From IMG/VR virus record IMGVR_UViG_3300027899_000051, positions 1 to 29,601 of that record: a stretch of DNA of 29,601 bases. One strand, 5' to 3'. The notes beneath the pieces are model-generated. The model worked only from the letters and a program-made list of their open reading frames with translations. It had not been told where the DNA came from and did not search any database. Below are positions 5,299-19,874 of this stretch, piece after piece. The DNA comes from a virus. How positions within the stretch are numbered: position 1 is the first letter of the stretch; each line of letters begins with the position of its first letter. A program made the translations under genes and the position numbers.

Positions 5299-6059
5299 TG
5301 GATCACCCCTTTTTTCCAGCCTTCCCACGAAGTCCAGCCCGCCGGGAGATTCGCCGTGTAGGGGCCATCCGGCATTCGCCCTTCTTCATCCTCGGCCTCT
5401 GTCATTATATAGAGACCGTGCCAGCCCCACGCCTGGCCCCAGGAGTTCAGATTCACGTTGAACTTCGTTCCCTCCTGGACAAGCCTCCCGATCCTAAGCG
5501 TTGCGTGGTATCCATCCGCCGCTGTCGGAGCATAGGAATGATCGATGCAGCCGCTCTTCGGGTCCGGAGTTTCCCAACCTTGGTGGATGTGGTGCCCCTG
5601 GACCAGTGGCGTGCTGAGCAATGCATACCCAACCGAGACCCAGTCCGGACTGATGGCCAGCAACTGGCTTTCCGGTGGGATCAAACCGAGATCGCGCATG
5701 GCCTCGAACCCCTGGGGAAGCTCCAGGCCGCCGTCAAGGTTGCCCTTGCAGAACATCTCGCGGCCTCGTTTCCAGATCATCTCACCGCTGATCTGGTCGC
5801 CCGGTTTGAACGGATCCTCCTCGGCATACCGTCGCAACATCAGTTCAAGCCAATTGGCCCACGCCTGGCCTACGCACGATGGCCCGTTCTGGTTATAGGT
5901 CGGCAGACACCAGCGGAACCAACAGAAGATCGGAGCATCGTCGACCGCCGCGCTCGCCTTGACCAGGTGAACGAACCCGGCCTTTGTCGGATCGCCAGCG
6001 ATGGCCCCTTGCCATTTCCAGGGCTGAAACAGAATCGTCTTAGTTCGGGATCGCTTCAT
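5292..6059 (-). CDS. Papain-like (C1A family) cysteine peptidase in the lysis cassette
   Basis: 255 residues with the three signatures of papain-fold peptidases in order: a glutamine and catalytic cysteine in NQNGPSCVGQAWA (Q57, C62), a histidine in DGYHATLRIG (H185), and an asparagine in NLNSWGQAWGWHGLYIM (N205). The spacing fits a catalytic C-H-N triad. No signal peptide is obvious at the chosen ATG 6059, which follows CGGAG and overlaps the lipoprotein gene by 20 bases. It is placed among a membrane protein, an NlpC-like hydrolase and a lipoprotein, so a role in lysis is likely (cutting peptide crosslinks or envelope proteins). Alternatives are a virion-maturation protease or an effector against host proteins. 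Confidence 0.82.
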   Translation of the reverse strand: MKRSRTKTILFQPWKWQGAIAGDPTKAGFVHLVKASAAVDDAPIFCWFRWCLPTYNQNGPSCVGQAWANWLELMLRRYAEEDPFKPGDQISGEMIWKRGREMFCKGNLDGGLELPQGFEAMRDLGLIPPESQLLAISPDWVSVGYALLSTPLVQGHHIHQGWETPDPKSGCIDHSYAPTAADGYHATLRIGRLVQEGTKFNVNLNSWGQAWGWHGLYIMTEAEDEEGRMPDGPYTANLPAGWTSWEGWKKGVIQC

Positions 6060-12041: not shown

Positions 12042-12539
12042 TTAGAAAATCGACTTCCGGTATTCCTTGTAGTTGTTTCGGTGCGCGTCCCAGAACTCGG
12101 TGTCCTCTGCGCAGCGGCGCAGATGGTTGAACCAGGAGTCCAGGTTCAAGAGGGTAAAGTGGGGCGCGATCTGGATGGTCTCGATGAACCCGGCGCGGGC
12201 CAGCCGGGTCAGCGTACACCATTGCCCAGGGAAGCCCAGGAGGCGCACCAGGTTCTGGTCGAGCCGCACCAGGCGTTCGGTGCAGGGCAGCGGCGAGAAC
12301 GTTCCATCGCCGTTCGTTTGCCAACGGCATAGCGAGACCTCGGGCGGCTCCTGGGTGCGGTTCGGAGCGTACTTGCCGGGCGCAACCTGAACCATGCTCG
12401 GCTTCGTCGCTTCGCGCAGACGATCGGGAAGAGTTCCCCGCGAATCATCCGCCTTCGCCGAGGCTACGGCGGACGTGCGCGAAACATTGCGAATAGGAGA
12501 TCCGACCGGCCCCTTCCACTTTCTGTTCTTCGTTCCCAT
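12042..12539 (-). CDS. Unknown protein with a probable C-terminal helical domain
   Basis: 165 residues. The first 80 residues are polar, proline-rich and probably disordered. The last 80 (LVRLDQNLVRLLGFPGQWCT through WFNHLRRCAEDTEFW) are compact with alternating helices, which could be a small nucleic-acid-binding fold (LTRLARAGFIETIQI resembles a helix-turn-helix pair). The ATG forms a TAATG overlap with the winged-helix gene, so the two are coupled. Confidence 0.6.
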   Translation of the reverse strand: MGTKNRKWKGPVGSPIRNVSRTSAVASAKADDSRGTLPDRLREATKPSMVQVAPGKYAPNRTQEPPEVSLCRWQTNGDGTFSPLPCTERLVRLDQNLVRLLGFPGQWCTLTRLARAGFIETIQIAPHFTLLNLDSWFNHLRRCAEDTEFWDAHRNNYKEYRKSIF

Positions 12540-12859
12540 TATGCTCCCTTGAGGTTAAGTTCCGGTTGAACAAGTGTCTGTGCCTTCCGAGTTTCGAACG
12601 TCTTCTCCGCCTCGATTGCCGAGAGCGCCTTGTAGACTCCGCGTCTGCCGCTCCGACCGACCAACTCCACGAAGCCCAACTCGTAAAGTTCCGTCACACG
12701 CGGCGCGATCGAGAGCACGTCCGCGCCGTTCTTCGCAGCCAATTCCCGAACTGTGCAGGGGCCGCCCTGGGACAGCATCAGGTGAACCCGGCAGCGGTCG
12801 CCATCAACACGGGTGAGGACGTCCGCCCAAGTCGCGTTCCGTAGATCGATCGGCTTCAT
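12539..12859 (-). CDS. Winged-helix DNA-binding protein
   Basis: 106 residues. A helix-turn-helix at about 34-62 (GPCTVRELAAKNG, then APRVTELYELGFVEL) is followed by a short wing (VGRSGRRGVYKAL). This is the common pattern of small phage winged-helix proteins that act as regulators or replication accessories. ATG 12859 follows GGGAGGATG. It is the first gene after the CC-every-five-bases repeat block, so it may be read from a new transcript start or depend on the repeat. Confidence 0.72.
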   Translation of the reverse strand: MKPIDLRNATWADVLTRVDGDRCRVHLMLSQGGPCTVRELAAKNGADVLSIAPRVTELYELGFVELVGRSGRRGVYKALSAIEAEKTFETRKAQTLVQPELNLKGA

Positions 12860-13091
12860 TTCGACATCCTCCCTTCGTTACGAACCTGTCCGTTCCACGC
12901 CTTGCTCAACCACGCCAAACTCTACCTGCCGTTCCCTGCCGGTCCGGATCCAGCCGGGCCTCACCTGGCCCCTGTAAACCCTTCCTCGCCTGCCGCGCCT
13001 TTCCCTGGCATGCATTTCCCGTCCTCGCCATGCCATGCCTGCCAAGCCCCTCTGTGCCTCACCGGTCCCATCCTGTCCCCGTCTTAACCTG
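12860..13091. other. 232-base gap holding a pentameric repeat block
   Basis: This is the longest gene-free stretch in the minus-strand operon. It contains no credible gene: the short plus-strand frame starting at 12902 is simply the repeat read as proline, serine and alanine codons. The repeat inside it is listed separately. No promoter hexamers were recognised. Confidence 0.6.
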
Positions 13092-13099
13092 TCAAACCC
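12925..13099 (-). repeat. Degenerate pentameric repeat, GG every five bases on the minus strand
   Basis: On the plus strand CC occurs nearly every five bases from about 12925 to 13099. The phase is constant from 12929 to 12990, shifts by one base until about 13039, and shifts again to the end. The consensus is therefore CCNNN (GGNNN in the transcribed minus strand) with variable bases between, about 35 units. GGN3GGN3GGN3GG is a two-quartet G-quadruplex pattern, so the minus-strand RNA could fold into serial quadruplexes. The last unit or two overlap the end of the 208-residue protein gene at 13092. Confidence 0.8.
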
Positions 13100-13718
13100 T
13101 CTGAAATCGTCCCCAGCCCAACGCGCTGGACTTCTCCGGCCGTCCCTCGCAGATCCCCACGCCCCAACCGGCCTGGTCCACCAGGGCCAGCAACTGCTCT
13201 TCGCTGACCAGGCGCGGGTTGAACTCGATCCGGACCCGCAGCTGCCATTCCTTGTATTCCGGCCGGTAGGTCAATCCTCGGGTGTTGATGCCGATCGTCA
13301 CGGCGTCTTCGCGCATCACGCCAACGGCCGGGGATCCATCGTGGCGTTCAATGGGGATCAGCGCCGCGCCCGGTACCGCAACGGAGTCCACGAACACGGC
13401 CTGGCGCAAACCGACCTTCGTCAGATCGTCAAAGGCGCTGGCGGCGGTGATGATCGCTTTCTTCAATGTGGTGATCGGAGCGCACTCCCGGCCTTCTTCA
13501 TCCACATACCGCGCCGCCCGGAACTCGGCTTCCGGGTCGCGCTGCTCCTTGGCCTTCTTGGCTTTCTTCTGCTGCTTGTCCCGGATCTCCTGCTTCGCCT
13601 TCTCCGCGAAGGCATGGATCACCAGCGGCGCTCCAGGGCGTCCGCGCAACGTGACCTCGACCGACTTGATCCCGATTTCCGCACTTCCTTTACCAACCGT
13701 CTGCTTCTCCGTCTTCAT
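13092..13718 (-). CDS. Conserved phage protein of unknown function ending in GWGRF
   Basis: 208 residues from ATG 13718, behind GGAAGGTGG and overlapping the upstream stop (ATGA). A lysine-rich helix (about 38-60) separates an N-terminal strand region (EVTLRGRPGAPLVIHAF) from a C-terminal part with PITTLKKAIITAASAFD, LTYRPEYKEWQLRVRIEFN, and a final glycine-rich GWGRFQRV. I know this pattern from early-region proteins of many phages, usually unannotated, often near recombination genes. Neighbours here are Gam and accessory early genes, which fits a DNA-metabolism role. The function is not established. Confidence 0.75.
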   Translation of the reverse strand: MKTEKQTVGKGSAEIGIKSVEVTLRGRPGAPLVIHAFAEKAKQEIRDKQQKKAKKAKEQRDPEAEFRAARYVDEEGRECAPITTLKKAIITAASAFDDLTKVGLRQAVFVDSVAVPGAALIPIERHDGSPAVGVMREDAVTIGINTRGLTYRPEYKEWQLRVRIEFNPRLVSEEQLLALVDQAGWGVGICEGRPEKSSALGWGRFQRV

Positions 13719-14221
13719 GCCACCTTCCTTCGTAGTTGCGAGGCCCGCCGCCTGATGATGTAGATGGCGTGCCACAGTTGTTTCTCGGATGCGTCGTCCA
13801 GATCCACTCCGCGGGCGTTGCGCAAGAATCCCGCCGCGTACTCGCGGGCGTGCGGCAGAACGTCCGCTGCGTCGCGGCATTCCCGTTCGAACCGGCTCTT
13901 CGCCCATATCCTCGGCTCGCAGGTGGCGCGGACCCGCAGCGCGTTCGCGGTGTCCTTCTTGCCGAGCAAGGTCAAGAAATGCGCCTTCAGGAAAAGGAAG
14001 TCTTCGTTCGTGCAAACCGTCAGGCTCTTCCGCTCCACCGCCATCAGCTGCTGTTGGTGCCGCCACTCCTCGAAGTCCATGACATCCAGGCTCTGCGCCA
14101 TGCGTTCCTGGCCGTAGACGTTCCACGCCTTCTTCGCCAGGAGGATGAGATCCCGCTTCTGGTCGTTCGACAGCGGTGCCAGCGCCGCTCCTCCGATCGC
14201 TTTCTGTGTGTGGGAGTCCAT
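13715..14221 (-). CDS. Unknown phage early protein
   Basis: 168 residues. The N-terminus (LSNDQKRDLILLAKKAWNVY) and the central EEWRHQQQLMAVERKSLTVC and DFLFLKAHFLTLLG segments are helical. The end (KQLWHAIYIIRRRASQLRRK) is strongly basic. Similar proteins accompany the GWGRF protein in other Mu-like phages as I recall, but no activity is known to me. ATG 14221 lacks a strong ribosome site and may depend on coupling to the membrane-protein gene five bases upstream. Confidence 0.65.
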   Translation of the reverse strand: MDSHTQKAIGGAALAPLSNDQKRDLILLAKKAWNVYGQERMAQSLDVMDFEEWRHQQQLMAVERKSLTVCTNEDFLFLKAHFLTLLGKKDTANALRVRATCEPRIWAKSRFERECRDAADVLPHAREYAAGFLRNARGVDLDDASEKQLWHAIYIIRRRASQLRRKVA

Positions 14222-14225
14222 GTTC

Positions 14226-14504
14226 TTAACTCAGGAAATGGGGATTCGTCAGATGCGCGAATGTGGTTTTTCGATGCTGGATCGGAGGAACGTTCCACTC
14301 CGCATCCTGCGCCCAACGAGTCGCCTTGGTGGCCATCATAAAGGTCTTAGCGAACCGGCGTGAGAATAGTGCGCTTCCCGTCCTAGCGAGCGCGTCCTGA
14401 TCCCGTTTCCAGCACCAAAGCGCGAGTTGCATGCCTCCCATGACGCCCACGACCAGGGCCAGCGCTACGATCCCAAGGAACCCGATGATGTCTGTCGCGT
14501 CCAT
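14226..14504 (-). CDS. Small single-TM membrane protein
   Basis: 92 residues from ATG 14504, behind AGGCAGG. A hydrophobic segment covers about residues 5-28 (IIGFLGIVALALVVGVMGGM), followed by a cytoplasmic-looking basic region. It is encoded directly after Gam in the early operon, not in the lysis cassette. It could affect the host membrane, exclude superinfecting phages or be a second holin. None of these is shown. Confidence 0.6.
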   Translation of the reverse strand: MDATDIIGFLGIVALALVVGVMGGMQLALWCWKRDQDALARTGSALFSRRFAKTFMMATKATRWAQDAEWNVPPIQHRKTTFAHLTNPHFLS

Positions 14505-16637: not shown

Positions 16638-16654
16638 CGCGTCTTCTCCGGACC

Positions 16655-16689
16655 AACTGACCACTGACTTCTGACAACTGACCTCTGGC
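16655..16689. repeat. Tandem heptamer repeat NNCTGAC
   Basis: Between the transposase stop and the next gene lie five consecutive heptamers: AACTGAC (16655), CACTGAC (16662), TTCTGAC (16669), AACTGAC (16676) and the decayed CTCTGGC (16683). The minus-strand unit is GTCAGNN. Heptamer repeats of this kind are known from cyanobacterial and other genomes as short tandem repeats. They are unusual inside a compact phage operon. They fill most of the 52-base gap. Confidence 0.8.
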
Positions 16690-18730: not shown

Positions 18731-19627
18731 TTACTTATGGAGTTTGCTCTTGAGTTCCACGAAGAGACGCTTCTGGTCGTGGGCTGGCCAGGACTTCACG
18801 ATTGCATCGGCATTGAGCGTGCGAACTTCATCAGGCATAACAGCGAACGCTGTGGCGAACTTCTGAAGGGTAGCCTCACGGTGAATCGTGCTGAGCCACT
18901 TGATCTTGCCCCAGTTGATGAACGTGTTGGCGATCGTCGTCGCAGCCCTGGGCGCGAGCCTGCCATAAACGGGATCGATCCGTTTCTTCCCCTTGGTGTG
19001 CTGGCTCCCGGCGAGCATCGACGGAATGCGCGGGATGCAAGTTTCGCCTTCGAGGATCGCCATCTTGACGAAGCTCCACTTCTCTTCGTCGCACTGCTCG
19101 CGAATCTCCGCCAAGGCGGAGAAATACTCTCGGGGAACCCGGTACTTTTCGGCGAGCGATGCGAAACTTGACTGACCCTTTTCTCTACCCTTTTCTACCG
19201 ACCCTGTGAATTTATTCACAGGGTTCCCTCCGGCCTTGCTTCTGGCCTTCCTTGCCGCCGGGTTGTTCAGGTCCGGATGGTTCAAAAAGAGGATGAGAAC
19301 GATTCCCGATTTCGTCAGTTGCCTACCCTGGACCGACTTCTCGATGGCGAAATCCAATGGGTCTTTTTCGGCATGGACCACGCAGGGAATCGGGTTCCCT
19401 GCCTTTCGTAGAACCTCGAAGCGATGTCGGCCATCGAGGATCAAATAGGTTCCTTCATGCTGAGGGTTCGGAACGACGGCCAGGGGATCCATGAGTCCTT
19501 TGCTGGCGATGGATTCGGCCAGCGCCGACAACTGGTCTGACGTCAGGCGCGGGATATTTTCGAGAACCGAATGCTCCATCAGAAATTCCGGAGCCACCTC
19601 AATGATCTGCCGCGTTCCATTCTTCAT
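18731..19627 (-). CDS. ParB/Srx-type DNA-binding protein
   Basis: 298 residues. The N-terminal ParB-like domain shows LTSDQLSALAESIASKGLMD, an isoleucine-rich strand, and the signature GRHR in LILDGRHRFEVLRKAG (about 65-69). A further helical region lies at 95-210. True chromosome-partition ParB usually pairs with ParA, which is absent. ParB-fold proteins occur before the transposase in many Mu-like phages, where they may regulate or occupy DNA. I chose ATG 19627 because AGGAG precedes it and the longer frame to 19744 lies inside the Ner-like gene. Confidence 0.85.
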   Translation of the reverse strand: MKNGTRQIIEVAPEFLMEHSVLENIPRLTSDQLSALAESIASKGLMDPLAVVPNPQHEGTYLILDGRHRFEVLRKAGNPIPCVVHAEKDPLDFAIEKSVQGRQLTKSGIVLILFLNHPDLNNPAARKARSKAGGNPVNKFTGSVEKGREKGQSSFASLAEKYRVPREYFSALAEIREQCDEEKWSFVKMAILEGETCIPRIPSMLAGSQHTKGKKRIDPVYGRLAPRAATTIANTFINWGKIKWLSTIHREATLQKFATAFAVMPDEVRTLNADAIVKSWPAHDQKRLFVELKSKLHK

Positions 19628-19667
19628 GCTTTTTCCTTCTCCTTCCGTTACTCCATTTTGGTGTTGC

Positions 19668-19874
19668 CTATAACCCGAGTTCTGCTCTAAGTTTCCGGCG
19701 AATCGCAATCGAAAGGCGGCCCTGGTGAGAACGCGTGATCGCATAGTGAACGGTGGGGCGGAGGTAGCCGCGCGTCTTTGCCCAGCTGGCCAGTGTCAAA
19801 CCTCTCCGCATCAGTTCAGCACGGACACTCAGGGGATCGTCGAAGGCCGGTTCTTTATCTGTCTTCACTTTCAC
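19668..19874 (-). CDS. Ner-like early regulator (small helix-turn-helix protein)
   Basis: 68 residues from GTG 19874. The pattern (PLSVRAELMRRGLTLASWAK, then TRGYLRPTVHYAITRSHQG) is that of the Ner/Nlp family, a small lambda-repressor-like fold. Mu Ner has 75 residues and shuts down early and repressor transcription. It opens the minus-strand operon and lies head to head with the repressor. The start is uncertain: no ribosome site is visible, and GTG 19874 falls at the predicted transcription start, so the mRNA may be leaderless. A TTG at 19916 would overlap the repressor start. Confidence 0.7.
   Translation of the reverse strand: MKVKTDKEPAFDDPLSVRAELMRRGLTLASWAKTRGYLRPTVHYAITRSHQGRLSIAIRRKLRAELGL

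Follow-up and report, generated by a model that had tools for sequence, protein, structure and literature searches.

The periodic block at positions 12882-13089 of the analysed DNA is very probably the array of guide RNAs (vrRNAs) belonging to a VIPR system encoded by the phage, with the vipr gene located directly upstream. The window, i.e. the whole stretch that was analysed, comprises 29,601 nt (IMG/VR record IMGVR_UViG_3300027899_000051, positions 1 to 29,601) and belongs to a phage with Mu-type transposition genes and Gam. VIPR is a recently described CRISPR-like weapon, apparently directed by phages at their rivals. In the published systems, a phage-encoded RAMP protein of ~20 kDa, Vipr, is accompanied by vrRNAs, each built from 9-16 repeats of YNNGG with a constant GGY and a guide formed by NN; skipping one base at a time, the NN bases locate double-stranded DNA, and VIPR represses competing phages (PMC13142463). 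The membership of the window locus in VIPR is well supported by the periodic array, its junctions, the position-specific conservation, the Vipr homology, the RAMP fold, the co-occurrence of gene and array in relatives and the insertion as a cassette. A VIPR system is thus assigned to an uncultivated phage of the Mu-like kind, and comparison with a sister phage shows vipr and its array to be one cassette, which the sister lacks. The features of the locus are as follows.

13092-13718, minus strand: vipr, encoding a predicted 208-aa RAMP protein with the C-terminal glycine-rich loop AGWGVGICEGRPEKSSALGWGRF (translation, profile match, AF2 model, Foldseek)
12882-13089, minus strand: GGHNN pentamer array (probable vrRNA array), ~38 pentamers with 3 GGCA junctions (segmentation, logo, shuffles)
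13040-13089, minus strand: unit A, 9 pentamers + GGCA, with an extra base at 13079 and the first pentamers uncertain; NN: TA CG CA TG CC GA AC GG TT
12991-13039, minus strand: unit B, 9 pentamers + GGCA; NN: AT AT GA CG AA AT AG AA GC
12927-12990, minus strand: unit C, 12 pentamers + GGCA; NN: GA AG TT GG CA GA CC TG CC CC AG AC
12887-12926, minus strand: unit D, 8 pentamers without a closing GGCA; NN: AG TT GT TG AA GT AC CA
12874-12884, minus strand: short inverted repeat TTCGTAACGAA closing the array, with a GGGAGG ribosome-binding-like site after it (sequence)

The minus strand of the non-coding gap at 12860-13091 (232 nt), which is situated between two minus-strand genes, shows GG at intervals of five bases. 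On the plus strand of 12925-13101, CC pairs occurred 19, 21 and 19 times at lags of 5, 10 and 20, compared with shuffle means of 9.3, 9.1 and 8.5, and these counts were equalled in 2, 0 and 0 of 5000 dinucleotide shuffles, respectively. For the entire gap, the lag-5 count of 23 (10.0 ± 2.7 expected from shuffling) was reached in 1 of 10,000 shuffles. The five-base CC spacing reported in the preliminary description is therefore real and exceeds shuffled sequence. Its placement in the gap preceding the winged-helix gene, and of GG on the transcribed strand, also agrees with our data. Its borders of 12925-13099 required revision: a block does lie there, but the array extends from about 13089 to 12882, whereby 12882-12924 had been overlooked and the upstream gene already occupies 13092-13099 with its 3' end. 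This is the sole such block in the window (top CC score of 19; top GG score anywhere of 7), and segmentation of the window yielded a single array. The RNA fold of the whole array revealed no strong structure (z = -1.4), and neither an Rfam search of 12400-14300 nor a promoter/terminator scan of the array region gave a match. When IMG/VR was scanned for ten consecutive GGNNN, at least 120 stretches were obtained, and those inspected among the ones listed were mostly GGCNN/GGTNN arrays, many of them with GGCA slips. By this recurrence, the pattern represents a widespread class and is not peculiar to the window phage.

The logo of the 38 pentamers showed G at frequencies of 0.84 and 0.92 at positions 1 and 2, while position 3 is C (0.42), A (0.37) or T (0.21) and in no case G (0/38). 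The NN positions 4-5 contain only 0.04 and 0.02 bits. The earlier statement that the remaining bases vary freely hence applies to positions 4-5, but not to position 3. This pattern also bears on a degenerate microsatellite-like tandem repeat without its own function, as might be proposed from the five-base period and from the fragments reported by Tandem Repeats Finder. Drift would erode all positions alike, whereas here two are near fixed and two are random, likewise in many unrelated phages, and in close relatives the array is always found beside vipr; the probability of such a repeat is negligible.

Three -1 slips interrupt the array, every one at the identical 4-mer GGCA-GG on the minus strand (the hyphen marks the junction), together with one +1 slip at 13079, which replaces the two one-base slips counted previously. 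The GGCA-GG slips divide the array into four units of 9, 9, 12 and 8 pentamers, to be compared with the published 9-16 repeats if the GGCA junctions are taken as putative RNA borders. The same junctions recur in the loci of relatives, most often at a spacing of 7-12 pentamers, and the bases flanking them there are ordinary pentamers with a slight bias. A search for a structured tail after each unit found none between the units and just one short TTCGTAACGAA at the end of the array; this inverted repeat is a possible candidate for the 3' end or tail.

The vipr gene has the same orientation as the array, and its start codon (ATG) overlaps the stop codon (TGA) of the preceding gene. A profile built from the 208-aa protein and 20 relatives was compared with the PDB, whereby 36PP, 'SUSP1 Vipr protein', was the one chain out of 177,635 sequences to score significantly (E = 7.2e-11); the single 208-aa sequence also finds 36PP (E = 4.8e-4). 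The AlphaFold (AF2) model of the protein has a pLDDT of 81 and a pTM of 0.77. With this model, all top Foldseek matches were CRISPR RAMPs (Csm3, Cas7-like, Cmr), with 37 chains at E ≤ 0.001 and modest TM-scores of 0.35-0.50. The C-terminus holds a RAMP-type G-loop (GRPEK...GWGRF end, AGWGVGICEGRPEK...GWGRF), in the region of which A180, G181, G185, R190, P191 and G198 are invariant across 21 relatives. The protein has no Pfam family and falls in PHROG 4652 (function unknown). Judged by this homology, the gene at 13092-13718 is a gene encoding a Vipr protein.

A total of 35 viral relatives of Vipr were found. All 26 relatives at ≥61% identity, two of which (L251 and L253) carry an identical locus, have an array adjoining vipr on the same strand, either downstream, upstream or on both sides of the gene. 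Related phages, in which the preliminary description had proposed to check the period, hold such arrays too. In a DNA comparison with the relatives, vipr gave 30 matches and the window array only 1 short match; that the gene can be aligned while the array cannot is expected of hypervariable guides. Arrays flank vipr on both sides in, e.g., L260, L261 and L268, and L254:800-956 is also listed among these. A 37% vipr relative (L276:4676-5000) possesses an array with the consensus GCANN and GCCA slips, not GGYNN with GGCA, so that the fixed triplet is not the same in all clades. In L266 (5665-6183), a vipr relative at 61% is flanked by an array with T at position 3 in 83% of the pentamers and the first G present in only 55%; near-identical units recur in this array, which hints at unit duplication. 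Among named phages, Gordonia phage Ecliptus (L305:2426-3330) and Mycobacterium phage Saal (L306:2040-3055) encode Vipr homologues with 31-39% identity that are annotated as 'hypothetical protein', and GGYNN arrays with GGCA-GG junctions adjoin both. A vipr homologue with this annotation is also encoded in ~30 more Mycobacterium/Gordonia records, in a Pseudomonas phage and in a cyanophage.

The preliminary description had interpreted the block as possible serial RNA G-quadruplexes with two quartets; in this reading, the block would attenuate transcription or translation. GGN3 repeats are in principle able to form such structures, and the G-rich strand is the coding strand. However, position 3 is never G in the window and mostly C or T in the pooled pentamers of relatives (0.66 C, 0.25 T; n = 2099), and the strict 5-nt register over ~40 units, the non-G base after GG, the fixed GGCA junction and the linked RAMP gene are all features, present in the window as in the relatives, that a quadruplex does not require. 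Moreover, the period is kept when one G is lost, as in the L276 and L266 arrays, although this would break the quartets. Serial quadruplexes are consequently very improbable, while the accompanying option of a 'protein-loading element' is not far from a guide RNA coated by a RAMP.

The decoded guides were also searched for targets. In ~2 Mb of loci, skip-1 matches showed no excess over skips of 0, 2 or 3 or over shuffled guides, and no excess at any skip was found in the sister phage L002, in L003 or in the window itself. Pattern scans of IMG/VR with units B, C (in two parts) and D returned chance-level matches only, in unrelated proteins, and these matches do not extend into the remaining NN. 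At skip 3, the perfect hits for L266 guides turned out to be the L266 array itself, which had escaped masking. One Saal guide had 3 matches at 2 mismatches in 248 mycobacterial genomes compared with 1 for the reversed control, which is not meaningful. The guide searches required exact or near-exact matches in sequences other than the source metagenome, so that the negative target result is weak evidence either way.

A VIPR locus that has decayed and lost its function, with the array as a remnant, would agree with the missing target and tail, with the 7 of 38 pentamers without a full GG, with the +1 slip and with the raised A at position 3. Nevertheless, the GG conservation of the window array equals the clade mean (0.84/0.92 vs 0.86/0.95), A at position 3 is also elevated in the nearest relatives L243 (0.20) and L247 (0.27), and vipr retains its full length and an intact G-loop. 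Decay of the locus is therefore considered unlikely.

The phage backbone closest to that of the window is found in L002, with identities of 71% for MuA, 82% for MuB, 69% for the 168-aa gene and 77% for the winged-helix protein. In L002, the 168-aa gene immediately precedes the winged-helix gene with no array in between, and vipr was not found in the whole record. The presence of this backbone without vipr and array shows that both arrived as one cassette. Conversely, the neighbour genes of the window were searched for in the vipr-bearing loci, and none was found there, the sole exception being g10325 with a weak match (29%) in L245. On comparison with L002 and these loci, vipr and its array behave as a mobile unit. 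We had also considered the winged-helix gene as a part of the system, which was rejected: L003, like L002, contains this gene without an array or vipr. By its distribution among these records, the winged-helix gene is part of the phage backbone. Relatives of MuA were found at only 35% identity in a sample of L144's phylum and not at all among deposited phages. Three further observations concern the backbone. L002 carries a palindromic GTGGCATGGGCGTCCCGCCCATGAATCACGGGCAAGATGCCCGTGCCAC element (5925-6000) in the gap corresponding to the cassette site. A short degenerate tandem repeat (GACCACT / CTGACAACTGACCT) occupies 16651-16687 of the window, within the gap that precedes the gene for the MuA-like transposase. 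A ParB-N-like protein (window 18731-19744) adjoins the MuA/MuB pair and is present in L002 too (26%).

Taking the block as a VIPR array, the following mechanism can be proposed. Transcription of the vipr-array stretch would proceed along the minus strand, together with the early operon, and the RNA would be divided at the GGCA-GG junctions into units of 8-12 pentamers. By analogy with the SUSP1 and P. fulva systems, Vipr subunits would then assemble on the RNA, one per pentamer, whereby GGH is held and NN is presented. The NN series would pair with DNA, one base being skipped after each NN (NNxNNx...), and the paired complex may block transcription of a gene in a rival phage or another element, the repression being that described for SUSP1 and P. 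fulva. Since no tail is present between the units, unlike in SUSP1, the processing may differ. The compact architecture may represent a distinct variant of VIPR. Rather more speculatively, the clade could constitute a separate, compact VIPR type, with vipr alone and no accessory gene, a continuous multi-guide transcript, GGCA-GG as a cutting signal or a handle replacing the tail, and a cassette moving between unrelated phages; we regard this extended proposal as possible but somewhat doubtful. In any case, arrays of the VIPR kind are recognisable in raw sequence, and the decoded guides are open to testing.

With class 1 CRISPR effectors (Csm3/Cas7 RAMPs), the window system shares the RAMP fold, the RRM core and the G-loop. 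It differs in being a single small protein with no cas operon alongside and no 25-40-nt repeats with spacers. No CRISPR direct repeats with spacers were found within the window, and Pfam and PHROG scans of the neighbouring early-region proteins revealed no Cas families. Membership in class 1 CRISPR-Cas is not supported, with neither a repeat-spacer array in the window nor a Cas family among the scanned neighbours.

The closest described counterparts are treated in the VIPR report, which covers Escherichia phage SUSP1 and a P. fulva prophage, type II (PMC13142463). Like these, the window locus is phage-borne and minimal, with a homologous Vipr (36PP, E = 7e-11) and adjoining intergenic GGY/NN pentamers of variable NN. 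SUSP1 possesses separate vrRNAs of ~100 nt, each with its own 3' tail, as well as a vap gene, and separate arrays were indeed seen when its locus was inspected. In contrast, the window contains one continuous array cut only by GGCA-GG into units of 8-12 pentamers. No tail was visible on the individual units, and a crude ORF comparison for a vap gene conserved in the clade gave no neighbour common to at least 4 relatives beyond vipr and artefact frames. Position 3 is H in the window (A in 37%), compared with Y in the published consensus. It has been reported that the structured 3' tail on each vrRNA belongs to the SUSP1 and P. fulva clades, that array architecture differs in other types, and that the vap accessory gene is typical but not universal (PMC13142463); the tail is therefore not defining for all types. 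Seven VIPR types have been published, and staggered arrays and single-vrRNA types are mentioned (PMC13142463). The Ecliptus and Saal loci resemble that of the window in having a Vipr homologue beside a GGYNN array with GGCA-GG junctions, although the phage backbones of both differ from that of the window and the Saal array lies upstream of the gene. These loci point to a large clade that includes Mycobacterium and Gordonia phages with culturable laboratory hosts, in which the way a tail-less array is processed could be studied.
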